Shown here piece by piece: positions 612 to 42,713 of a stretch of DNA of 43,389 bases; positions within the stretch are counted from its first letter, which is position 1, and each line of letters starts with the position of its first letter. Location: positions 1-43,389 of IMG/VR virus record IMGVR_UViG_3300018065_000026; one strand, given 5' to 3'. Made by a program: the position numbers and the translations under genes. Source of the stretch: a virus. The notes beneath the pieces were generated by a model. That model did no database searches. It had not been told where the DNA came from and saw only the letters and a list, made by a program, of their open reading frames with translations.

Positions 612-796
612 CGGGGATCCTCCGTGTCGGTGTCCCAGGTCGCGATTTGATGTGAGGACGTGCCGCATGCGACGTGCGGTCCGTCGTGCCCTTCCGGGCG
701 TGAGCAGTGGTAGCCGTGGCGCTTGGACGTCGCGGGACAGACGGTAGTGTCGTCGGTCTCGTGCCAGCCACAGTAGGTGCAGGCGGTCTCGGGCAT
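608..796 (-). CDS. small Cys/His-rich, probably zinc-binding phage protein
   Basis: This 62-residue protein has a CTYCGWHE knuckle at its N-terminus (CxxC), then single Cys residues, a YHCSRPEGHDGPHVACG segment and a late His. The spacing of Cys and His suggests one or two zinc sites. Small proteins with the pattern HxC...GHxGxHxAC are common in phage accessory regions; their function is not known. It is the first gene of the leftward operon and faces the 797-1174 control region. Its stop overlaps the next start as ATGA. Confidence 0.65.
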   Translation of the reverse strand: MPETACTYCGWHETDDTTVCPATSKRHGYHCSRPEGHDGPHVACGTSSHQIATWDTDTEDPR

Positions 797-904
797 GAGG
801 TTCGCGCGTGAAGGTTGAGGGAAGCAGCGAACGTGCTGCGAGCTGCTAGGGTAACGCAGTCGAGGACGAGATGGAAGAGAACACCAAGGTATCTTGCACG
901 AAAA

Positions 905-929
905 CAGCGAGGGTAATCAGCGAGGGTAA
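905..929. repeat. tandem 13-bp direct repeat, core CAGCGAGGGTAA
   Basis: Two exact copies of CAGCGAGGGTAA sit at 905-916 and 918-929, one base apart. Related AGGGTAACG occurs at 848-856, and CGAGGGACGC follows at 930-939. Their position between divergent operons suggests binding sites. Confidence 0.6.
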
Positions 930-958
930 CGAGGGACGCTGGAGCCGGCAGCAGACAA

Positions 959-1045
959 CCGGACCCAAAGGTCTTCTGTTGTCACAAGGGACATCCGGAC
1001 CCAGATGTCTTCATTCCAACCGCACCTGGATGTCCAGATGTCTAC
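959..1045. repeat. three spaced ~18-bp repeats (operator-like)
   Basis: CCGGACCCAAAGGTCTTC (959-976) and CCGGACCCAGATGTCTTC (995-1012) differ at two positions. A third, partial copy at 1028-1045 shares CCAGATGTCT and the final C. The copies are 36 and 33 bp apart. The first carries a small inverted repeat (GACC/GGTC), and GACATC/GATGTC arms surround the second. This looks like a regulator-binding array. Confidence 0.5.
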
Positions 1046-1073
1046 TACTACGGTAGTAGACCTGCGGGTCTGG
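1034..1073. promoter_or_regulatory. perfect hairpin with competing downstream stem
   Basis: A 9-bp perfect inverted repeat (GTCTACTAC at 1040-1048, GTAGTAGAC at 1053-1061) closes a TACG tetraloop, a UNCG-type loop closed by C-G in RNA. Its 3' arm overlaps a second stem, AGACC (1058-1062) with GGTCT (1067-1071), so the two are mutually exclusive. CCAGA/TCTGG (1034-1038/1069-1073) could bracket the first hairpin. It lies 114 nt before the start at 1175, so it may be a leader structure or a DNA palindrome. Confidence 0.4.
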
Positions 1074-1174
1074 AATAGGTTACGGTCACCGGTGGATTTT
1101 CCGGGCACTAGCGGCGCCGATCGGCCGATAGGTTCCCCGGCCGCGGAATGGTCCGCGCCTAACCCCTTCGAATC

Positions 1175-1486
1175 ATGACGACCGATTCCCTTTCCTTTGA
1201 ACGATGGATGGCCATCCTCGCGACGCGTGTCGAACGTTTCGCGGGCGTGTCGATCGACGATATGCCCGACGTGCAGTACCGGCATTGGTACGACGACGGT
1301 CTATCGACGGGCGCCGCGCTTGCCGCGGCTTGCGCTTGCTGGCGCGAGATTGACCCGCCGTTCCGGGCCTTCCTTGAGGAAACCGGACTAGGCGTAGCCG
1401 TCGATGCTGCACTTGCCGGCGAGTCCCCGAGCGAAGCCTACGCCCGTCACCTGGAATCCGATGGAGGGTCGACCGATGCCCGCTAA
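1175..1486 (+). CDS. small hypothetical phage protein (103 aa)
   Basis: The protein begins MTTDSLSFERWMAILATRVE and carries a YRHWYDDGLSTGAALA motif near residues 36-51. Small phage proteins with this tryptophan/WYD-G layout are common, but I do not claim a firm family. First gene of the rightward operon; its end overlaps the next gene by 11 nt. No Shine-Dalgarno sequence is visible before the ATG. Third codon positions are less G/C-rich than in the structural genes. Confidence 0.65.
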   Translation: MTTDSLSFERWMAILATRVERFAGVSIDDMPDVQYRHWYDDGLSTGAALAAACACWREIDPPFRAFLEETGLGVAVDAALAGESPSEAYARHLESDGGSTDAR

Positions 1487-2210
1487 TCCGAACGGTATGG
1501 TTGCGTGGTCCGATGCGGACCGGGTCCTGATCTTGACCGGACTACGGGCGCCGTCGACGAATCGGAAGACGGGCCGGATGGTGCAAGGCTGGATCCTCGC
1601 GAGGGCCGAGGATCCGGTGGCGGCCGTTCGGTCCGGATTGGACGCGAAAGTCTGCCCGTCGACGTGTCCTCTCCGCGGCGACAAGGGCGCCGGCCGCGGC
1701 TGCTACGTGAATCTGGGGCAAGCGCCGTTGAGCGTATGGCGCGCCTACAATCGAGGCGCGTACCTCGACGCCGATTGGACGGCGCTCCGGACGATGCTCC
1801 GCGGCAAGGCCGTGCGTTTCGGCGCGTACGGGGACCCGGCGATGGTTCCGGTGGCAGTGCTCGAGAGGGTCGCACGCTACGCCGATCGATGGACGGCATA
1901 TACCCACGCTTGGGCGGAGATTCCGGCCGATCATGCGAAGCGATTGCGACGGCTGGCAATGGCGTCCGTCGAATCGGAAGCGGACGCGGCCGTCGCGCGA
2001 GCGTCCGGTTGGCGTACGTTCCGGATCGGACTCGACAAGGATCCGGGGAGGGAGATTTGGTGTCCAGCTACGGTCGAGGGTGGAGCGTCGACAACGTGCG
2101 ACCGTTGCGGATTGTGCGCCGGCGCTTCGAACGGCGGACGGTCTATCGTCGTCGCGCCGCACGGCGCAGGATCGGGACACGCTCGCCGGATTCTTGACTC
2201 GCGTTCTTGA
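1476..2210 (+). CDS. cysteine-rich phage protein with possible metal or Fe-S site
   Basis: A 244-residue protein starting MPANPNGMVAWSDADRV. The start at 1476 is set by GGAGG 8 nt upstream. Conserved-looking blocks are KVCPSTCPLRG, GCYVNLGQ, VRFGAYGDPAMVP, YTHAW, MASVESEADA, EIWCPAT and CDRCGLCAG. The paired cysteines suggest a metal or iron-sulfur site. The blocks resemble a family of uncharacterised proteins in phages and plasmids, loosely like Gp88-type proteins; this is recalled, not tested. It sits between two hypothetical genes and is followed by hairpins (2216-2299). Confidence 0.65.
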   Translation: MPANPNGMVAWSDADRVLILTGLRAPSTNRKTGRMVQGWILARAEDPVAAVRSGLDAKVCPSTCPLRGDKGAGRGCYVNLGQAPLSVWRAYNRGAYLDADWTALRTMLRGKAVRFGAYGDPAMVPVAVLERVARYADRWTAYTHAWAEIPADHAKRLRRLAMASVESEADAAVARASGWRTFRIGLDKDPGREIWCPATVEGGASTTCDRCGLCAGASNGGRSIVVAPHGAGSGHARRILDSRS

Positions 2211-2215
2211 CGCCG

Positions 2216-2299
2216 CGGGCTGGCGCCCGTAGCGTCCACTCCCGTCGGTCGCATTGGTGCGGCTGGCGCTTCCCTTCACTCGGCCCCGTGGGCCTTTCT
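2216..2299 (+). terminator. two hairpins; the second is terminator-like (attenuator?)
   Basis: After the stop at 2210 come CGGGC-TGGC-GCCCG (2216-2229) and GGCCC-CGT-GGGCC followed by TTTCT (2282-2299). The second resembles a weak intrinsic terminator. It lies just before the ATG at 2312, so it could reduce read-through into that gene. Confidence 0.35.
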
Positions 2300-2311
2300 C
2301 CAATCGATACC

Positions 2312-2995
2312 ATGCCGCACGCTTCCACGCTTTCCCCCACGCCCGTCCGCTTCTCCCCGATCCTCCCGACGGACGATATCCCCGGCCGGCCGCTGCCGGA
2401 TCCCGGTCGCACCTTGCGGGTCTACCGGGTCCGCGCCGACGTAGTCCTACCCTACGTCGAAACGTTCCGGCCGGTCCTTTCGGTCGCGCGACGGACCCGC
2501 GGAGCCTTGGAGGTTCCGCACGCGACGACCATGGGCGGGCGCTACCTTGCCGTGGCCTTCGAAGTCCTGGCCACTTCCGAGCGCCACGCGGCGAGCCTTG
2601 TCCGGTGGCGCTTCTCGCTCGCGTCGCACAAGGACTACGCGCGGGCCGGGTCCGTCCTTGCTCGCGTGTCGGCGGCATTCGACGCACGGCGATTCGCTGG
2701 GGCCTTCGGCTTGCCCTCGGTCGCGATCCGGTCCGTGGGCCGGCCGCGGGAGTCGGTCTGGCAGATCGCGACCGGCCGTCGTCTCACCGGCTTTCCGCGT
2801 CCAGTCGCCGAATGGTGCCGCGTCCTCGACGGCCGGGCCGGTTCGCACCCGTCTCCGTTCGTGCCGCTCCAACCGATCGCGCATCACGGCCGTGAGGGCC
2901 AGCCGGTCTACACGTCGGCCGATTGGCGCGACCCGCGTGGCATCCGTCGCCCGGTGCCGATGGCCGCGCGGCGAGCGGCTCGATGGGTCGAGTGA
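2312..2995 (+). CDS. hypothetical protein (227 aa)
   Basis: The protein starts MPHASTLSPTPVRFSPI, is rich in Arg, Ala and Pro, and has no signal peptide or clear membrane segment. The ATG at 2312 was chosen because the upstream extension (TTG at 2207, overlapping the previous stop) crosses two hairpins and reads like non-coding sequence. It is the last gene of the rightward operon, with a strong terminator 27 nt after its stop. No domain is recognised. Confidence 0.55.
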   Translation: MPHASTLSPTPVRFSPILPTDDIPGRPLPDPGRTLRVYRVRADVVLPYVETFRPVLSVARRTRGALEVPHATTMGGRYLAVAFEVLATSERHAASLVRWRFSLASHKDYARAGSVLARVSAAFDARRFAGAFGLPSVAIRSVGRPRESVWQIATGRRLTGFPRPVAEWCRVLDGRAGSHPSPFVPLQPIAHHGREGQPVYTSADWRDPRGIRRPVPMAARRAARWVE

Positions 2996-3009
2996 GCTAG
3001 GCGCCTAGC
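2996..3009. repeat. 14-bp perfect palindrome at the stop codon
   Basis: GCTAGGCGCCTAGC overlaps the end of the 2312-2995 gene (TGA at 2993-2995) and lies just before the terminator. It is one of several CTAG-centred or CTAG-containing palindromes in the first 3.7 kb. Confidence 0.5.
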
Positions 3010-3021
3010 GGCGCGAGGAAC

Positions 3022-3054
3022 GGGCCGGATCCCTTACGGGGTCCGGTCCTTTTT
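3022..3054 (+). terminator. rho-independent terminator of the rightward operon
   Basis: GGGCCGGATCCC (3022-3033) and GGGGTCCGGTCC (3038-3049) pair over 12 bp with two G-U wobbles around a TTAC loop. Five T follow at 3050-3054. This is a textbook intrinsic terminator on the plus strand. Confidence 0.85.
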
Positions 3055-3264
3055 CGTGGGCGGCCGTTTCTGCCGTGGAGGCTTTCTGTGCGGCCGTCTC
3101 TCGCGTCCGGAAGGGTGGTATAGTGCGATCGGTCGGCGGACCGGCTCGCGTCGATCCTGACGCATTCTAGGGCCCTTGTGAGGGAAGGGCCTTCCACGGG
3201 CCTTGGACGGCCGATGGTCGACGGAACCGACCGCAACCTAGCGCGACGGACGCAAGGCTATACG

Positions 3265-3304
3265 TAGCAGCGGGATAGCAGCAATCGGACCCGCTAGTAG
3301 CAGC
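3265..3304. repeat. three TAGCAGC heptamers at 11 and 22 bp spacing
   Basis: TAGCAGC occurs at 3265-3271, 3276-3282 and 3298-3304. Start-to-start distances are 11 and 22 bp, so all copies lie on about the same face of the helix. The same heptamer appears inverted at 842-848 in the other control region. Confidence 0.5.
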
Positions 3305-3421
3305 GCCGACCCCCGGTCAAAGGAGCGCCAAGGATCCGAGCGCCGTTGGTCCGCGCCGCTCGGCCGGCCGTCCAGCCTTCCTGCCGTCGCATACGCCCGC
3401 GTCGCGCCGCGCTAGGCGGGA

Positions 3422-3442
3422 GAGAGAACGTAGCGTTATCTC
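3422..3442. repeat. 21-bp operator-like inverted repeat
   Basis: Arms GAGAGAACG (3422-3430) and CGTTATCTC (3434-3442) are complementary at eight of nine positions around a TAG centre. The size and symmetry fit a dimeric repressor site. Confidence 0.4.
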
Positions 3443-3542
3443 GCGTTCCGCGCCCTAGGCGCCACGATTGTGGGTCGACGTAGCCGGTGCGAGGCGAGGA
3501 GCCGATCGGCCGGCCTAGCGCGTGCGGGAGGACCCGAATGTG

Positions 3543-3593
3543 GAGATCCGGACAAGGAGGTCCGGTTGGAATGAGACATCGAGGTCCAGTTGG
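3543..3593. repeat. spaced GAGRTCCRG direct repeats
   Basis: GAGATCCGG (3543-3551), GAGGTCCGG (3557-3565) and GAGGTCCAG (3581-3589). The last two extend to GAGGTCCGGTTGG and GAGGTCCAGTTGG, 24 bp apart. Confidence 0.4.
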
Positions 3594-3664
3594 TCGATTT
3601 CGGGATACCCCTAGGGGGGAAAATGGCGCAGGACGCTACATCGATTGGGGTCTCCAATCTGTGC

Positions 3665-3690
3665 AGAAAGTTTGAGCGTTGATCGCTCAG
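3665..3690 (-). terminator. possible terminator at the end of the late block
   Basis: On the minus strand TGAGCG-ATCAA-CGCTCA (3673-3689) forms a 6-bp hairpin followed by AACTTTC. It overlaps the stop of the 3687-4385 gene. The T-run is weak. Confidence 0.35.
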
Positions 3691-5091: not shown

Positions 5092-5300
5092 CAGACTCCC
5101 TCCGTGGGCTGGAGCATCGCCTGATCCATGCGGAGCCAGGCGATCAGCTCGAAGTCCTCGAAGTCGTCCACGAAGTTCGTGGCGAGCTTCTGAACGGCCT
5201 TGGCCCCACAGGCCACGAGGGAGTTCCCCTCCGTCGTGTAGGAGACCTGGACGATGGCCCCGTCGGTCATCGTCTTCTCGAACGTGCATTGCACTTTCAT
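5091..5300 (-). CDS. small hypothetical protein (69 aa)
   Basis: The protein begins MKVQCTFEKTMTDGAIVQVS: strands followed by an acidic helix (FVDDFEDFELIAWLRM). The ATG at 5300 overlaps the upstream stop as ATGA, and its own stop overlaps the next start as TGATG, so it sits in a tightly coupled run. No family recognised. Confidence 0.6.
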   Translation of the reverse strand: MKVQCTFEKTMTDGAIVQVSYTTEGNSLVACGAKAVQKLATNFVDDFEDFELIAWLRMDQAMLQPTEGV

Positions 5301-5539
5301 CGTACGCGCGGCTCCTCCTGAGCCTTGCGGGTCTGCTCTTGGAGGCTCCGGACGTATGGATCCTCGACGAGCGGGTAGTCGGTGTAGTCGACCGGCGGAA
5401 CCAGGTACTCGGTGTACTGGGGCTCCGTCCAGTCCGTCCCTTCGTCGTCCGGCCACCCGAAGGCGAACATGGCCGAGACGAATCCGGCAGCGAAGAACGC
5501 CGCCCAGGTCGTCAGGTACTCGCAGTAGAACTTCTTCAC
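5297..5539 (-). CDS. small single-pass membrane protein (80 aa)
   Basis: The start is a GTG at 5539 that overlaps the upstream stop as GTGA. After KKFYCEYLTTW there is a hydrophobic helix (about residues 10-28, AAFFAAGFVSAMFAFGW), followed by an acidic, Tyr/Pro-rich tail and a charged C-terminal helix. The layout would fit a holin, an inner-membrane spanin subunit or another membrane effector; nothing in the sequence selects one. It lies in the post-terminase accessory block where T7-like phages often keep lysis genes. Confidence 0.55.
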   Translation of the reverse strand: MKKFYCEYLTTWAAFFAAGFVSAMFAFGWPDDEGTDWTEPQYTEYLVPPVDYTDYPLVEDPYVRSLQEQTRKAQEEPRVR

Positions 5540-23916: not shown

Positions 23917-24524
23917 CAGAGGGGGTAGCGACTGCGGGAGGGACCACCGAGCATCCAGATGCTGCGGGCGCGGTCGAGGCGCGTGACGCGGCGGGTCCGC
24001 TGGTCCTCGCGCTGGGCGTGGCGACCAGCCTCGAACTCCATCTGGCGCAGGCGTTCGAGGCCTTCGATCTCGCCTTCGTAGCGCTCGGCCACGTAGTTCG
24101 CGGCCATGGCGATGGCCCACAGGCGGAAGGCGTCCGACAGCTGCTCGTAGGTGTAGCCGAGGATCAGCTTGCAGCGGACGCCACCAGTGAAGACGTTGGT
24201 GTCCGTCTCCAGGTTGTAGAGGGCGTCTCCGCGGGCCGTGATCTGCGAGCCTCGTTCGAGGACCTCGACGCGGAGGGCGTTGGTCGGTAGAGCGATCAGG
24301 CCGCTACCGTCGGGCTCCAGGACCTTCTCACGGATCGTGTTGAAGTTCCAGCCCTGCAGGCAGATGTTCTTGACGGCCTCGTCGATCGCGTCGTCGATCT
24401 CCAGAATGCGTTGGTCATCCGTGACCGACGTCGGGTTAGCGACGGCCGGCTCGCCCAGCGCGTTCAGCACGCGGTTGATCGCGGTGTCCCGGTTGGTCCG
24501 GGTGGCGGGATTGATGTTGGACAT
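23916..24524 (-). CDS. 11: tail tubular protein A (T7 gp11-like)
   Basis: 202 residues, near the T7 gp11 size (196). The block RDTAINRVLNALGEPAV followed by ILEIDDAIDEAVKNICLQGW and WNFNT is characteristic of the podovirus gatekeeper/adaptor that joins portal to tail. LALPTNALRV-like and YERYEGE-like segments follow. It is the first gene after the capsid and its hairpin. No Shine-Dalgarno sequence is visible upstream. Confidence 0.9.
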   Translation of the reverse strand: MSNINPATRTNRDTAINRVLNALGEPAVANPTSVTDDQRILEIDDAIDEAVKNICLQGWNFNTIREKVLEPDGSGLIALPTNALRVEVLERGSQITARGDALYNLETDTNVFTGGVRCKLILGYTYEQLSDAFRLWAIAMAANYVAERYEGEIEGLERLRQMEFEAGRHAQREDQRTRRVTRLDRARSIWMLGGPSRSRYPL

Positions 24525-25824: not shown

Positions 25825-26163
25825 TCAGGGAGTCTGCGTCGGAGGCGGCGTGATCGTCAGACCGACCGCCTCTTCCTGCTTCTTCTTCTCTTTCAGCTGC
25901 CCCTTCGTGACGCCGCCGGTCATACCGGCCGCGGCGATGATGAGGGCAGCGACGGCGTCGCCGAGCGGGCCGAAGCCCAGGTAGCCGCCGAAGGTCTTGA
26001 CGCCCGAGGCCGCTTGGTCAGCGTTCGTCACGGGCGTGTCGGGGGTGGGGTCGACGGTGCCCACGAGGGGCTCCTCCACCGGTTCGTTCAGCCACTCGCC
26101 CAGAGAGCCGCAGGCGCTCATACCGAAGACAAGGGCGAAGGACGCGAGAGTGAGCTTGATCAT
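25825..26163 (-). CDS. lipoprotein with internal TM segment; unimolecular-spanin candidate
   Basis: 112 residues. The N-terminus is a lipoprotein signal peptide (IKLTLASFALVFG) with lipobox MSAC, so Cys18 would be lipidated, and GS follows, which favours outer-membrane sorting. A Pro/Asp/Thr-rich stretch (EPVEEPLVGTVDPTPDTPV) leads to a hydrophobic helix (about residues 66-87, GPLGDAVAALIIAAAGM) and a Lys-rich tail (KGQLKEKKKQ). Outer-membrane lipid anchor plus C-terminal inner-membrane helix is the u-spanin layout; other phage lipoproteins (e.g. exclusion proteins) are alternatives. Starts with an ATGA overlap after scaffold. Confidence 0.55.
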   Translation of the reverse strand: MIKLTLASFALVFGMSACGSLGEWLNEPVEEPLVGTVDPTPDTPVTNADQAASGVKTFGGYLGFGPLGDAVAALIIAAAGMTGGVTKGQLKEKKKQEEAVGLTITPPPTQTP

Positions 26164-27035
26164 CGGGGCATCTGCTTGGTGGCCGAGCGGGAGACGCGGA
26201 CGCCGTGGGCGCGGCCGGCCATGAACTCTCGGCGACGTTGGTTGACCTCGCGCGTGTAGCGCTGGCCCTCCTCGGACGGGTTGTTGTAGCGCCGGTCCTT
26301 CACCCGCTTGTGGTAGTCGTCCACGTCGGTGATCGGCGGCTGCGTGTTGGTGTCCTGCGGGGCGCGGCCGTTCTGACCGGTGGCGTGGTTCTTGTACGCC
26401 TTACCCGTGGCCTGGAAGTAGGCCGCCGCGAGGTCGCGTGCGGTCTGCCGCGCCACGCCCTCGTCGACGTTGTCGAGTCCGGCGTTGTAGTGGTCGAGGG
26501 CGGCGTCGTTCAGGTTCTTCGCCGCCCACTGCTGGATCTTCTCCCAGTTCTTCCCGCCGCCGGCTTCCGCCGCGATGGCGCGGTTGCGCTGATCCACGGA
26601 CGTCGCCGCGGCCTGGCGGCTCATCTCGATGACGTCGTCGCTCATCCCGGCCTCGCGCATGCGTGTGACCATCTCGTCCGAGAGCTTGCGCTCCGCGTTC
26701 GCCGCGATGTCGGCGACGATGTCCTGGGCAGTGGGCGCGGTCGACGTCTTCGTCGCGGCGTCCTTGTCCAGGCGGACGCTTACCGGAACAGATTCGTCAG
26801 CCGAATCCGCAGCGCCTTCGCCTTCCGGCTGGCCTCCTTGAGCACCCGCATCGCTTTGCGGGCGAGGATCGCCGCCGCCTCCGTCAGCGCTTCGAGAGTC
26901 ACGACGATCGTCAGCAGCGTCTCCAGCGCCAGGGTCTTGATCTTGTTCACGGGGGGTCTCCTGCGCTTGGCGTCGCTGGCTGGGCGGTACTTGGTCTTCG
27001 CGGTTACCGCGTTGGGTGGGGTCGATGCTGGCCAC
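26160..27035 (-). CDS. 9: scaffolding/capsid assembly protein (T7 gp9-like)
   Basis: 291 residues (T7 gp9 has 307) between portal and capsid genes. The GTG start at 27035 has AGGAGG 5 nt upstream, placed over the portal stop. Residues 1-90 are disordered (Asp, Gly, Gln, Arg-rich). Residues 95-291 are helical and charged with a basic C-terminus (YTREVNQRRREFM), as expected for capsid-binding scaffold. Third codon positions in codons ~30-85 become A/T-rich, coinciding with an out-of-frame gene (26780-26950). Confidence 0.75.
   Translation of the reverse strand: MASIDPTQRGNREDQVPPSQRRQAQETPREQDQDPGAGDAADDRRDSRSADGGGGDPRPQSDAGAQGGQPEGEGAADSADESVPVSVRLDKDAATKTSTAPTAQDIVADIAANAERKLSDEMVTRMREAGMSDDVIEMSRQAAATSVDQRNRAIAAEAGGGKNWEKIQQWAAKNLNDAALDHYNAGLDNVDEGVARQTARDLAAAYFQATGKAYKNHATGQNGRAPQDTNTQPPITDVDDYHKRVKDRRYNNPSEEGQRYTREVNQRRREFMAGRAHGVRVSRSATKQMPR
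26780..26950 (-). CDS. embedded out-of-frame small protein (holin-like?)
   Basis: A 56-codon gene lies wholly inside the scaffold gene in another frame, from GTG 26950 to TAA 26780. AGGAG lies 7 nt before the GTG. About nine tenths of its third positions are G or C, like the rest of the phage, whereas the scaffold frame loses that bias exactly here. The product has a hydrophobic/amphipathic first half (LALETLLTIVVTLEALTEAA) and a basic second half (RKAMRVLKEASRKAKALRIR). A small membrane-active protein such as a holin is possible. Homology is unknown. Confidence 0.6.
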   Translation of the reverse strand: MNKIKTLALETLLTIVVTLEALTEAAAILARKAMRVLKEASRKAKALRIRLTNLFR

Positions 27036-27044
27036 TGTTCCTCC

Positions 27045-28655
27045 TTACTGCTGGATGGCGGCTTGGGTCAGGGGGCCGGCGGCTTGCAGGGCCATGGCAC
27101 GCTGGTGCTCTTGGGCCTGGTCTTGCGCCAGCTCCTCTTCGGTCTTGACGAAACTCGGGTCCGGGATGCCGGCTCCGATGTACACCTCTCGGACCAGACG
27201 CGGGATGTGCGTGGTCGAGATGAAGGCGTCCGCGCCGATCGTGGCGTTGAGCGTCTGAGCCGCCATGGTGAGGCGCTGCAGGTACTGAGCCTGTCCGAGC
27301 GTCTCGACGCCGGTCGTGAACTCGATGCCGACCTCCTCGCCTTCGGGGAGGTGCTGCTCAAGCTCTTCGACGATGGACGCCACGCGGTCGTTCTCCTTGA
27401 GATTCCGCCAGATCCATAGCGCGAGCGGTCGCTGGAACGCGAGCTGCAGACGAGCCGGCAGACCGCCGGTGCCCTTGTCGAGCTCAAACGCCGAGCGTGC
27501 GATCTCCTCAGCGGTGACTCGCTCGCCTTCGCGGCGGACACCGAGGAACATCAGGAAGCGGCGCGACAGGCGCTCTTCGAGCTTGGAGTGGACCTGGAAC
27601 GCCCACGACAGGTCGGGGAGGTTCTGGCGCTGGTTGACCACGCCGATGTCCTCTTCGCGGCCGGGGATGTACGCGCCGTTCTCGGCCTCTTCGAGGTCGG
27701 CGATCTGCGTAGCTCCACCAGGACGGACGAGGATCTTGTTCTCCGAGGAGAAGACCGCCGCCTCGACGAGGGCCTGCGTGAGGCCGTTGAACGAAGCGAG
27801 GTCGGGCAGCAACGGATCGACCCAAGCGCGGCCGTAGTTCTCCTTGTTGTGCCACCCGGTGGTCACGACGTGAAGGGGCGCGTCTTCGTCGCTGTCGAAG
27901 TACTGCTCGGTGTTGGGGCGGACGTAGCCTCCCTTGTACGAGACGTCCTTGCCGATGGCGTTCTCGAAGTGGACTTCCTGCCACATCTTGAGCCGACCGT
28001 CGGGCTGACGGACGAGGCCGGTGAACACGATCGGCTGCTCCATGCTGAACGTGGACGGGCTGGTACTCGTGAGACGAGCCATCATGTCGCCGTGCTCCGG
28101 GAGGTCCTCGAACGCGACCCCCTCGCGGACGACGAGGGCGTTGATCTCCTTACGCGGCCCGACCATGAGCGCCACGTCTTCCAGCGTGTGGAAGCAAGGC
28201 ATGCCCATCTCGTCGGCGTAGCGGTAGTCGATCACACACGTCCCGCCGACCAGCAGGAACGGCACCAGCTCGGTGAAGATCTGGCGGACGTGCAGCTCCT
28301 GGATGCGCTCCAGGATGGCGAGGTCGATCTCGGCGAGCTTCTCCCGAACCTTGACCTGGTTGTCGGGGCTCAGCGCGTTGCGATCGATGGGAAGGTGAGC
28401 GCGGAAGAACGGGACGTCATGCGGGATCTGCTGGAGCGTGATGTGCGACTGCAGGTTCGCCAGCCCTTCCGCGCCCAGGGACTGGAACGTGTACCGGACC
28501 TCTTGGACGGGCCGGCCCGGATACGTTCGCGAGTTCGTACCCTCGGGGTAGAGCGACGGATCGGTGAAGCGCGAGTTCTCGATGGCGCGCTTGAGGAAGC
28601 TCGCGCGTTCGAGTTCGGCCTTCTGCCAGATGGCGTCGAGAGAGGGTTGTTCCAT
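27045..28655 (-). CDS. 8: head-tail connector / portal protein (T7 gp8-like)
   Basis: 536 residues, the same length as T7 gp8. The N-terminus (ELERASFLKRAIENSRFTDP... SLGAEGLANLQSHI) and LVGGTCVIDY match podovirus portal proteins. Twelve copies would form the ring at the head vertex that binds terminase and then gp11. The Gln/Ala-rich C-terminus is the barrel helix. It follows the 81-aa gene with a TGATG overlap; TAAGGAGG combines its stop with the scaffold ribosome binding site. Confidence 0.93.
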   Translation of the reverse strand: MEQPSLDAIWQKAELERASFLKRAIENSRFTDPSLYPEGTNSRTYPGRPVQEVRYTFQSLGAEGLANLQSHITLQQIPHDVPFFRAHLPIDRNALSPDNQVKVREKLAEIDLAILERIQELHVRQIFTELVPFLLVGGTCVIDYRYADEMGMPCFHTLEDVALMVGPRKEINALVVREGVAFEDLPEHGDMMARLTSTSPSTFSMEQPIVFTGLVRQPDGRLKMWQEVHFENAIGKDVSYKGGYVRPNTEQYFDSDEDAPLHVVTTGWHNKENYGRAWVDPLLPDLASFNGLTQALVEAAVFSSENKILVRPGGATQIADLEEAENGAYIPGREEDIGVVNQRQNLPDLSWAFQVHSKLEERLSRRFLMFLGVRREGERVTAEEIARSAFELDKGTGGLPARLQLAFQRPLALWIWRNLKENDRVASIVEELEQHLPEGEEVGIEFTTGVETLGQAQYLQRLTMAAQTLNATIGADAFISTTHIPRLVREVYIGAGIPDPSFVKTEEELAQDQAQEHQRAMALQAAGPLTQAAIQQ

Positions 28656-38800: not shown

Positions 38801-39151
38801 CTAGTCTCCGAAGATGACGTGGTGCGCCCGAGCCCACCAGAGGCCGAAGCTCGGGGGGTGCATCGTGTACGCCAGCTCGGGGTCCTCGTGGTTGAACCAG
38901 TCGAGGGCGTGGGCGTACTCGTGGGCGAGCAGGAACAGTCTGTGCCTGACGTGGTAGCGCTTCTCGATCGTGATCACGAACGAGCGGCGCCCCCGCCGGT
39001 TGGCGATGCGGCAGTACGCACACGCGTCGCCGGCGAGGGCGCGGTACTCGACGACGACGGGAAGCCTAGTGGGCAGCTCGTCCTTCAAGGCCTTGAGAGC
39101 GTCACGAAGGATGACGCGGGCCCGGCTAGGCGTCACGTCGTCGAGGGTCAC
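38801..39151 (-). CDS. small HExxH zinc metallopeptidase-like protein (116 aa)
   Basis: HEYAHALDW (HExxH) sits in the C-terminal half, followed by HPPSFGLWWARAHHVIF, the position where SprT-like phage proteins carry a third ligand. A CAYCRI pair lies upstream. Start is GTG 39151 in a GTGA overlap with the 804-aa gene. It directly precedes RNA polymerase and is therefore probably early. It may cleave a host protein, but the target is unknown. Confidence 0.65.
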   Translation of the reverse strand: MTLDDVTPSRARVILRDALKALKDELPTRLPVVVEYRALAGDACAYCRIANRRGRRSFVITIEKRYHVRHRLFLLAHEYAHALDWFNHEDPELAYTMHPPSFGLWWARAHHVIFGD

Positions 39152-41562
39152 GACAGCTGCTGCGTGTGGGCGAGGATGTGGTGGACCATCGAGCCCTCGC
39201 TCGCGTACGTCGTCCGGTTCATCGACGTACCGGTGGCGAACTGCGTAACCATGTCGGAGTCGTAGGCCGCGATCAGCGCCTCGATGATCGGGCGGTAGAG
39301 CGTGAGGTTACCCACCTCCTGCTCGTCACGACCGGTCAGCATGAGCGCCGTGGCAAACACGCGTCGGATGTACGTCCGGCTGTACTGGTTCGAGCCCGAC
39401 TCGTAGTCCGGGCTGGAGTACAGCGCGTCGACAGCCGAGTGCGACTGGACGAGGTGCGTGAGGTTCTTGCCCTTCTCGACGATGCCCACGCGGTAGTCGT
39501 GGGACTCGGCCAGCGGGTCCTTGTAGATCGTCAGGTTGCACCACAGGCCGCGGAGCAGGACGAGGCCCACCGTGAGGTCGTCCTCGCGTCCAGTCGCACG
39601 AGCGGCCGCCCAGCAGGCGTTGAGCAGCAGACCGTCCTGCCAAGGTTGCACGACCTCGGGGATCGTGGCCGCCGCTTCGGCCTGCAGCTCTTCCGTCCGG
39701 CTCAGCTCCTCGACCGTCTTGCCCAGAGCCGTCGCGAGGATCTCGTACTGCTCCTCGTACAGCTGGTTCCGAGCGGTCGTGAACTCGAAGTTGCCGTCGC
39801 TCCAGCGCCCGAAGCCGCCGTTGGGCATCTGGTACTCCGCCAGCGACGCGATGTACAGCCAGCAGTGGTCGTGGAAGTCCTTGTACAGGTCCGCCTCGAA
39901 CACGTTGTTGACGTACGTCAGCGCCGCGGCGGCCGTGTAGGCGATCCAGGCCTGGGCTCGGCCGCCGCTCGTTCCCTTACCTGGGCCGAGGGAGTACTGC
40001 TTCGGATCCGGGCCGGTGAAGATGGCCGCCGAACCGAAGTACAGCAGGAGCAAGCGAGCGAGCGGGTCGCCGTGATGCTCGACGAGACCGAGGATCGGTT
40101 CGAGGGCGCGGACCAGGTGCATGTCCTTGATCGCACCCCAGCGCCGCTCGATCTCCCACTGCGTACCAGAGGCCGTCAGCGGGGCGTTGCCCGGAGCGTT
40201 CTGGTTCCACGGACCACTGGTCCACGAGTGAGCCACGGCCTTGTTGGCGTCCTGCGTGTCGGACTCGACGGTCATCTTCGGGTTGCCGCCGAAGCGCGTC
40301 ATGATCGCGTTGCGGGAAGCCGGCTGCCCCTTGTACTGGACGAAGACGTGGTGGCGGTCGACGACGTTCTCCGTGAAGGCCCAGAGGTAGGCGACGCGGT
40401 TGAGAGCGTTGGTCAGCATGAACTGGGCGTGCCAGTCCGTACCGACGAAGATCCCCGTGGCGACGCCGCCGAACTTGGGATAGACGCGGTGGGCTCGACC
40501 GGAGAAGCCGTCCACATCGCCGCCCCAGTAGTCGTGAGTCGTGCCGGCGACGACGCGAGCGATGTGGTCGTCCATCGTCTCCTCGTCGAAGGCGACCAGC
40601 TCGTCGCCGTACTGCGGGAGGATGCCACCGTGGAACAGGAGAGGCGAGTCGGGGTTGTGGGCGTTCTGGTCCGTGACCGTAGCCGAGTTGCCCGACACGC
40701 TGTAGTAGCCCTTGTTCTCGACCCAGGCGTCCGCCCACGTCGGGAAGTCGTCGCTGACGTCCTCGAAGACGGAGAAGCGCAGCACCTTGGCGCTCTGCGA
40801 GCGGTACGCGTACGTGTCGGAGTCGTTGCCCCCGTCGCTGGCGTTGAGCCAGCTCACGGTGCCGGCGCCCTCGTTCGTGTACGGCGTGGCCTGCTTGGGC
40901 TTGAGACGGAAGCCGTCCGGGACCTCGAACAGGATCTCCTCGAAGTGGTTCAGACCCTGCGGGTCTTCCCAGTCGGCGTTGATCCAGACGAGGTCGAAGT
41001 CAGCGACGCCGATACCAGTGTGGTAGGTGATGAAGCCTTCGAGCGTGCCGACCTTGCCGTGGACGCAGCCGGGATCGATCGCCGCCATCGGGAGGATGAG
41101 GCGCGAACGGACGTAGGTCTTCCCGATCTTCGTGCGAGACCAGTCGATCTTCGCCGTCGCCGAGTAGCGCCCGTCGGCGCCCACGGCGGTCACCTTGATC
41201 CCTTGGATGTTGGCGAGGAAGTTGATCTGCGGGTCCGGAACGATAGCCGTGTCTCCAGGACTCTCGGTGTCCGTGATCGTCAGGCCGGCCTCGATCTGGG
41301 CCTTCGTGGCGACGGTCTCCAGGACGACGCTCGTCACCCCTCGGAGGTCGTCCGTGTTGAAGGGACCCCCTTTGTACCCGTTGGGCCGGCAGTCGGTGAC
41401 GAGGTCGGTGCCGCCGTCGGCCGCAGACCGGATCGTGTAGGGCGAGACGTTCCGGAGGAAGTTGAAGGAGTCGGCGTCAGCCGGCGGGACGGGGACCACG
41501 ACGTTCACGACCTGGGTCGGGATGTCGGGCACGGCGCCGTAGACGGTAGCGAGAGTCGCCAT
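39148..41562 (-). CDS. large two-part protein, possibly polysaccharide-degrading or receptor-binding
   Basis: 804 residues. The first ~450 are beta-rich (VRSRLILPMAAIDPG, LEGFITYHTGIGVADFDLVW, VLRFSVFED), the rest is helical with MPNGGFGRWSDGNFEFTT and QPWQDGLLLNACWAAARATG, like an alpha/alpha toroid. A beta domain plus toroid recalls polysaccharide lyases/hydrolases of the PcRGLX/YetA kind; this is inference. It is the first gene of the RNA polymerase operon, preceded by a terminator and a 150-nt leader. No Shine-Dalgarno sequence is visible. Confidence 0.5.
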   Translation of the reverse strand: MATLATVYGAVPDIPTQVVNVVVPVPPADADSFNFLRNVSPYTIRSAADGGTDLVTDCRPNGYKGGPFNTDDLRGVTSVVLETVATKAQIEAGLTITDTESPGDTAIVPDPQINFLANIQGIKVTAVGADGRYSATAKIDWSRTKIGKTYVRSRLILPMAAIDPGCVHGKVGTLEGFITYHTGIGVADFDLVWINADWEDPQGLNHFEEILFEVPDGFRLKPKQATPYTNEGAGTVSWLNASDGGNDSDTYAYRSQSAKVLRFSVFEDVSDDFPTWADAWVENKGYYSVSGNSATVTDQNAHNPDSPLLFHGGILPQYGDELVAFDEETMDDHIARVVAGTTHDYWGGDVDGFSGRAHRVYPKFGGVATGIFVGTDWHAQFMLTNALNRVAYLWAFTENVVDRHHVFVQYKGQPASRNAIMTRFGGNPKMTVESDTQDANKAVAHSWTSGPWNQNAPGNAPLTASGTQWEIERRWGAIKDMHLVRALEPILGLVEHHGDPLARLLLLYFGSAAIFTGPDPKQYSLGPGKGTSGGRAQAWIAYTAAAALTYVNNVFEADLYKDFHDHCWLYIASLAEYQMPNGGFGRWSDGNFEFTTARNQLYEEQYEILATALGKTVEELSRTEELQAEAAATIPEVVQPWQDGLLLNACWAAARATGREDDLTVGLVLLRGLWCNLTIYKDPLAESHDYRVGIVEKGKNLTHLVQSHSAVDALYSSPDYESGSNQYSRTYIRRVFATALMLTGRDEQEVGNLTLYRPIIEALIAAYDSDMVTQFATGTSMNRTTYASEGSMVHHILAHTQQLS

Positions 41563-41825: not shown

Positions 41826-42713
41826 CTACTCGTCCTGGCGCAACGAGAAGTAGCCACCGACGACCCCTTCGGGGTTCAACCTACCGTAGTGGGTCGTTTG
41901 ACCGATAGTTGAGTGCCCCAGGATCTTCTGGAGAACCTCGATGCGGCCCCCTCGGTTGAGGTAGCGGGTCGCGAAGGTGTGTCGGAGGGAGTGAGGCACC
42001 AGCGTCTCATCCTGGATGTTCGCGAAGTGCTTGGCGACCTTGAACCACCTCCAGTAGTTCGAGTGGGCCACCTTCATCTGCCCCCAGAGACGCGGAACGG
42101 ACGAACACTTGGAGCCGACCATGATCATGGTGTCCCAGGCGTCGATCGCTCGTTGGTTCAGAGGGACGACTCGGAACTTCCGGCCCTTGCCCTTGCGGAC
42201 GCGGACGGCCTCGCGAGGCCCAAGGTGTGTGTCGACCGTGATCCTGTCGTCCGGCCGGAGAGCCCACAGCTCGCCGATCCGGAGACCGGTCTCCAGGAGG
42301 AACTCGGTGGCCGTCAGAGCGATCGTGCGGCTCGTCTCGCGGGCGAAGGGGATCCGAGTCAGGGCCAGGAGGATGCGCTCCTCCTCGTCCTTGGAGAGGA
42401 CCCGGTGACGGTCGTTGTCGACCTTGATCGTCCGGAGCTTGAGGTTCTGTGGGACGGCCTCGTACTCCTTGGCGGTCTTGAGGACGCGAGAGAAGGCCAT
42501 GAGGTACGACCGCTTCGTCGTGTCCTTGACGTCCATCTCGACGACCTGGGCGTACAGGCGGTCGAGCGTGGCTTGGTCGAGGTGAGTCAGCGGGAAGTCC
42601 ATGCCGACAAGGTTGATCACCTTCGTCGCCTTGGCTGTCGAGCGGTCCTTCTCGGAGGACTGGGCCCAAGCGGTCATGCGGGTTGTGTGGAGAGCTTCGG
42701 CGAGGTTCTTCAT
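41826..42713 (-). CDS. int: tyrosine recombinase / phage integrase
   Basis: 295 residues. The N-terminal half is a core-binding SAM-like domain (residues ~10-95). Catalytic residues are all visible: R145 in TGLRIGEL, a Lys in RKGKGRKFRVVPL, H241 and R244 in PHSLRHTFATR, H267 in LGHST and Y276 in TTHYGRL. The start at 42713 has GGAGG 7 nt upstream and overlaps the previous stop as ATGA. It likely integrates the phage into the host chromosome; no excisionase or clear attP was recognised. Followed by a strong terminator. Confidence 0.93.
   Translation of the reverse strand: MKNLAEALHTTRMTAWAQSSEKDRSTAKATKVINLVGMDFPLTHLDQATLDRLYAQVVEMDVKDTTKRSYLMAFSRVLKTAKEYEAVPQNLKLRTIKVDNDRHRVLSKDEEERILLALTRIPFARETSRTIALTATEFLLETGLRIGELWALRPDDRITVDTHLGPREAVRVRKGKGRKFRVVPLNQRAIDAWDTMIMVGSKCSSVPRLWGQMKVAHSNYWRWFKVAKHFANIQDETLVPHSLRHTFATRYLNRGGRIEVLQKILGHSTIGQTTHYGRLNPEGVVGGYFSLRQDE

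Follow-up and report, generated by a model that had tools for sequence, protein, structure and literature searches.

The DNA analyzed here (43,389 bases, one virus record, IMG/VR IMGVR_UViG_3300018065_000026; hereafter the window) carries nearly all of its genes on the minus strand and in a T7-like order. Genes for RNA polymerase, single-stranded DNA-binding protein, primase/helicase, DNA polymerase, exonuclease, portal, scaffold and capsid are followed by those for tail tube proteins, an internal virion protein and the large terminase. The position of the integrase gene (Table 1) matches that in the temperate clade of T7-like phages described with LUZ100 (PMC10134795) and, because of this location near the RNA polymerase gene, the phage is probably a member of that clade. 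An 804-aa protein without family match is encoded between RNA polymerase and integrase (39148-41562, minus strand), which is an odd site for such a large unknown gene in this phage group, and a 116-aa ORF (38801-39151, minus strand) contains a HEYAH metalloprotease-like motif and has no Pfam match. Over ~3 kb near the left end (612-3686) no ORF scored as coding in the gene scan; this part may be terminal or regulatory DNA.

The gene between portal and capsid encodes a scaffold of the T7 gp9 type. Its product matches PHROG 1052 (E 9e-11) and PHROG 1018 (E 4e-10), both comprising head assembly/scaffold proteins, and this profile match agrees with the portal-scaffold-capsid order. Within the scaffold gene, the first-pass annotation had pointed out a 56-codon frame starting at GTG 26950, preceded at 7 nt by AGGAG, and all of this was confirmed from the sequence. 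The embedded ORF is on the same strand as the scaffold ORF (27035-26160), in its +1 frame, and overlaps the codons for scaffold residues 29-85. Both frames possess separate translation start signals, i.e. AGGAGG-4-GTG at 27035 for the scaffold (start region TAAGGAGGAACAGTG) and AGGAG-7-GTG at 26950 for the embedded ORF (start region AGGAGACCCCCCGTG). A strong Shine-Dalgarno sequence is present in only about a quarter of the genes here: one as good as that of the embedded ORF precedes 9 of the 32 predicted gene starts, but also 4% of the start-like codons on this strand, and is therefore helpful rather than proof. A 56-codon open +1 frame is by itself ordinary in this genome, as it occurs in 30% of windows. 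No RNA structure or Rfam element that could take the place of a gene was found at the embedded region.

Table 1. Positions of the scaffold locus features and of the integrase gene within the window.
Feature	Position	Strand	Basis
Candidate embedded gene, 56 aa, GTG start, TAA stop, MNKIKTLALETLLTIVVTLEALTEAAAILARKAMRVLKEASRKAKALRIRLTNLFR	26780..26950	-	frame statistics, gene scan
AGGAG Shine-Dalgarno sequence, 7 nt before embedded GTG	26958..26962	-	
Six-C run between Shine-Dalgarno sequence and embedded GTG; possible +1 slip site (scaffold frame ACC CCC CGT)	26951..26956	-	direct reading; function putative
AGGAGG Shine-Dalgarno sequence of scaffold GTG 27035, overlapping the portal stop codon	27040..27045	-	
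Portal (head-tail connector) gene, 5' of scaffold	27045..28655	-	PHROG 449, E 2e-81
T7 gp9-type scaffold (capsid assembly) gene, 291 aa, GTG start	26160..27035	-	PHROG matches
Lipoprotein-like ORF, 112 aa, with later hydrophobic segment, between scaffold and capsid	25825..26163	-	
Integrase gene, beyond RNA polymerase gene	41826-42713	-	

The first-pass annotation had also reported that third codon positions are biased towards G/C in the embedded frame and lose this bias in the scaffold frame. Indeed, GC contents at the three codon positions are 0.62/0.41/0.91 in the embedded frame, similar to the other genes of the phage (about 0.61-0.72/0.40-0.51/0.82-0.92), while in the scaffold frame the shared bases give 0.91/0.62/0.42 and the part downstream of the embedded stop codon gives 0.67/0.48/0.94. 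Accordingly, codon log-likelihood favors the embedded over the scaffold frame by +30.4 nats, whereas the same difference never exceeded 0 in 12,920 windows of other genes (maximum -14). When the scaffold gene was split into frame-0 and frame-1 stretches with ORF boundaries not supplied, the segmentation returned a frame-switch segment (26950..26786) that coincides with the embedded ORF; upstream of it, scaffold codons 1-28 score about 0.44 nats per codon in favor of the scaffold frame. When the whole window was scanned for genes, the embedded ORF was the only same-strand overlapping ORF with a gene-like score (0.49 per codon). One other overlapping ORF scored above 0.2 (0.27), which resides on the plus strand and lacks a Shine-Dalgarno sequence.

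As a signature of selection, however, the third-position argument is partly circular. Third positions of the embedded frame are first positions of scaffold codons, which the scaffold amino acids set to G or C, and randomised sequences likewise give 0.91. High GC3 in the embedded frame was therefore dropped as independent evidence. The informative signal is the abnormal synonymous codon choice of the scaffold, rather than the GC3 of the embedded frame. Because of this circularity, we held the amino acids of one frame fixed and shuffled its codons synonymously. With the scaffold protein fixed, the +1 frame was always open and GC-rich at third positions, but the embedded-minus-scaffold likelihood was 9.4 SD above the randomised sequences. 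The embedded frame encodes 21 Leu/Ile/Val/Met/Phe residues, as compared to 5.7 +/- 2.3 expected (maximum 14 in 5000 randomisations), and scaffold GC3 over the overlap is 0.40 instead of 0.84 +/- 0.05.

In the reciprocal test, in which the embedded protein was held fixed, the scaffold frame contained 15 Asp and Glu residues versus about 8 +/- 1.9 expected (z 3.9), exceeding all 237 null windows (maximum 3.4). Net charge gave a z of 3.66, but one null window nearly reached this value (3.62). The extra Asp and Glu residues arise because embedded codons end in G (37 codons) rather than in C (14 codons), contrary to the C preference of the phage; the difference between both classes is +23, as compared to -8.3 +/- 6.8 in the randomised sequences (maximum 9). 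The simplest reading of these tests is that acidity of the scaffold and hydrophobicity of the peptide are both selected. Thus, both frames carry a coding signature beyond the mutual shadow, which coincides with the ORF limits and is a statistical result from one genome. Selection on the embedded frame, as proposed in the first-pass annotation, is well supported within this single genome by the randomisation tests together with the coincident frame-switch segment. Taken with the signs of selection in the scaffold frame, the locus therefore looks like a real dual-coding region. Dual coding becomes visible from a single orphan genome because the strong codon bias allows the two frames to be tested against each other.

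Correlation of codon use with the genome is 0.46 for the embedded frame and 0.17 for the scaffold frame over the overlap, both lower than in most gene windows (mean 0.70). In overprinted viral gene pairs, one partner is disordered and the newer frame has distorted codon use (PMC8227390). The locus shares these features, as codon use is distorted and a single-sequence model, poor overall, shows a disordered scaffold arm (pLDDT <50 for most of residues 22-100). Being closer to genome codon use, the embedded frame may be the older frame of this stretch, which is only suggestive of a history opposite to the usual picture of a new gene arising in an old one.

From these data, the embedded ORF is probably a genuine nested gene that is translated and selected within the scaffold gene, and likely an overprinted late gene. 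We propose that the late mRNA would be translated from GTG 27035, preceded by AGGAGG, to give the scaffold protein, in which residues 29-85 would form an acidic, disordered arm. Independent initiation at GTG 26950, preceded by AGGAG, would yield in the +1 frame a 56-residue basic amphipathic helix. Internal initiation, late timing together with the scaffold and the function of the peptide are the parts of this proposal that we infer.

The peptide had been described as half hydrophobic and half basic, which is right: GRAVY is 1.20 for the first 30 residues and -0.59 for the rest, and the pI is 11.4. AlphaFold2 run on the single sequence predicts one helix encompassing residues 2-54 (pLDDT 94.8). 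Helical periodicity of the sequence peaks at 100 degrees (P 0.016 versus block shuffles) and is carried mainly by the C-terminal half. The peptide may be membrane-active, as suggested, although the hydrophobic half contains three Glu residues, a rough membrane-insertion score is positive, i.e. unfavorable, and the model is a single long helix. In view of this score, the peptide is more easily pictured as an interfacial amphipathic helix or a coiled coil than as a classical transmembrane span. Searches of Pfam, PHROGs, PDB sequences and GenBank phages (tblastn) gave no hit to the peptide, and a fold search with the predicted helix against BFVD returned no match.

What might such a peptide do? 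The E protein of phage phiX174 has a hydrophobic N-terminal and a basic C-terminal part. Gene E overlaps gene D out of frame, and its product inhibits MraY (PMC3324380). The candidate gene resembles this arrangement in being a short out-of-frame gene inside a scaffold gene, with its own ribosome binding site and with a hydrophobic N-terminus followed by a basic C-terminus. Unlike here, D is the external scaffold of a small ssDNA phage, whereas the present scaffold is internal, of the T7 gp9 type, and belongs to a dsDNA phage. The peptide, known from its sequence alone, moreover shows no similarity to E in Pfam, PHROG, phage tblastn or PDB searches, and it carries the three Glu residues in its hydrophobic part. 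The single-gene lysis (sgl) genes of ssRNA phages, e.g. MS2 L, also encode short peptides and overlap other genes (PMC10229422); these phages are of another type, and no similarity to such peptides was found in Pfam or PHROGs.

In relatives, the interval between scaffold and capsid often holds holin-like proteins, small TM proteins or lipoproteins, as named by eye and not by family search. In the window, this interval contains the lipoprotein-like ORF 26163-25825, which has a basic tail and a weak, sub-threshold match to DUF5862, and no family match above cut-off in Pfam or PHROGs. The window proteins that were scanned against Pfam and PHROGs included no recognisable holin, endolysin or spanin, and the lysis genes of this phage must therefore be divergent or novel. 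An 80-aa ORF elsewhere (5297-5539, minus strand) has a single hydrophobic segment at the N-terminus, besides a charged tail, and looks i-spanin-like by eye. The make-up of the peptide, the holin-like and lipoprotein genes of relatives and the lack of a recognised lysis gene lead us to a late, envelope-associated peptide that helps lysis as the likeliest function, albeit a tentative one. With its hydrophobic N-terminal half, the peptide would associate with or insert into the inner membrane, leaving the basic C-terminal half at the cytoplasmic face, and would aid lysis of the host cell. Given the phiX174 precedent and the scaffold-adjacent gene context, this role is the first hypothesis to test. 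A role in host takeover may also be considered.

Close behind ranks the possibility that the peptide is real but acts in the virion or in assembly, for example as a small basic ejected protein or as partner of the acidic scaffold arm. It is encoded among portal, scaffold and capsid genes, and its strongly basic helix would be made beside the acidic arm. In T7, small virion proteins such as gp6.7 and gp7.3 are encoded nearby. However, a hydrophobic N-terminal half with a GRAVY of 1.20 is unusual for such proteins, and the peptide is similar to none of them.

Comparison with relatives bears on whether a nested gene exists at all. A 19-kb sister contig (IMGVR_UViG_3300017960_000072) is identical across the embedded and scaffold region, which argues against an assembly error and adds no evolutionary information. 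Identity extends over about 9.3 kb of the minus strand, and the base-for-base match ends at window position 24363, where an indel, a strain difference or a contig end error may be located. Apart from distant portals (26-33% identity), IMG/VR queries with the peptide, the scaffold, the portal or the terminase, or with a portal motif pattern, returned this contig or nothing. A portal profile detected only distant prophage-like relatives among GTDB species genomes (22-32% identity), and GenBank phages contained no DNA match to the window and no match to the peptide. Hence, none of the three collections provided a homologue suitable for dN/dS. No protein similar to the peptide was found in any relative examined (best E 0.5, chance level), and no convincing second nested gene was present among about 150 relatives with a recognisable scaffold.

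It is improbable, though conceivable, that there is no overlap, i.e. that portal and scaffold genes are separated by the 56-aa ORF as an ordinary small gene and that the scaffold starts downstream of 26780. The scaffold resembles its relatives almost exclusively beyond residue ~94 (mostly from 117 onward) and thus after the embedded ORF, and in 60 of 151 relatives more than 100 nt separate portal and scaffold. A small gene occupies this place in several annotated relatives, including the Autographiviridae jiawei, CRP-171, RHEph21 and LUZ100, in which it has the same position and a similar size (40-75 aa). One relative (L016) even shows the same apparent frame switch when the longest ORF is taken; this start is wrong, as the real scaffold ATG follows a conventional small upstream gene, and L016 was rejected as a second nested case. 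In contrast to the embedded ORF, the small genes of these relatives lie outside the scaffold gene and encode charged, disordered proteins of low hydrophobicity without similarity to the peptide. In the window, moreover, no ATG, GTG or TTG follows 27035 in the scaffold frame until residue 122 (26672), while scaffold-frame codon bias is strong already from about 26765. GTG 27035 has a perfect AGGAGG, and the acidity of the scaffold frame across the overlap exceeds what a passive shadow would give. Initiation at a CTG, or a frameshift, could possibly provide the scaffold start, but requires additional assumptions.

We hold it to be equally improbable that unusual codon use of an acidic Asp/Gly/Ala arm casts a gene-like shadow into the +1 frame and that no second gene exists. 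Given the scaffold amino acids, an open +1 frame with GC-rich third positions is indeed inevitable, and acidic N-terminal arms of some other GC-rich scaffolds (L114, L124 and L138) show a milder GC3 drop with no obvious embedded gene, for which reason part of the signal in the window may be compositional. The +1 signal of L124 was judged a shadow of its Ala/Pro-rich arm. Against a compositional origin stand the excess likelihood over synonymous randomisation, and the drop of scaffold GC3 to 0.40-0.42 and its return to 0.94 at the ORF limits. The amphipathic periodicity of the peptide also speaks against a shadow, and the window ranked first in 190 scaffold-frame synonymous tests over the relatives.

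Least probable is entry into the embedded frame by +1 slippage, or by slippage on the six-C run, instead of internal initiation. This would fuse scaffold residues 1-28 to the helix (~84 residues). The scaffold frame reads AGGAG ACC CCC CGT, in which the Pro tRNA could shift by +1 from one CCC to another, the Shine-Dalgarno-like element 3 nt upstream recalls the geometry of prfB, and the segmentation does not resolve 26950 from 26956. However, CGT in the A site, at 17% of Arg codons, is not a starved codon, no stop codon is present there, and ordinary spacing between Shine-Dalgarno sequence and GTG explains the same bases more simply. Near 26780, no slippery heptamer was seen by eye, and a programmed -1 shift that would lead from the embedded frame into that of the scaffold was discarded.

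A nested gene with its own start, the reading that we prefer, belongs to a kind already known from phages. Standard phage annotation skips genes that are fully nested on the same strand, and few clear nested cases with both frames apparently selected exist in tailed dsDNA phages. In the limited collection of literature searched, we found no nested gene in the scaffold gene of an Autographiviridae phage. That a T7-like dsDNA phage evolved a lysis or envelope-attacking peptide nested in its scaffold gene, independently of phiX174 and with both frames selected, is a bolder idea that we regard as rather doubtful. If true, the acidic scaffold arm and the basic amphipathic helix would be two readings of one sequence, and a lytic peptide would represent a second, independent example of a scaffold gene that conceals a lysis gene. 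If the peptide is not lytic, it would still be a compact and testable small phage protein of new sequence.
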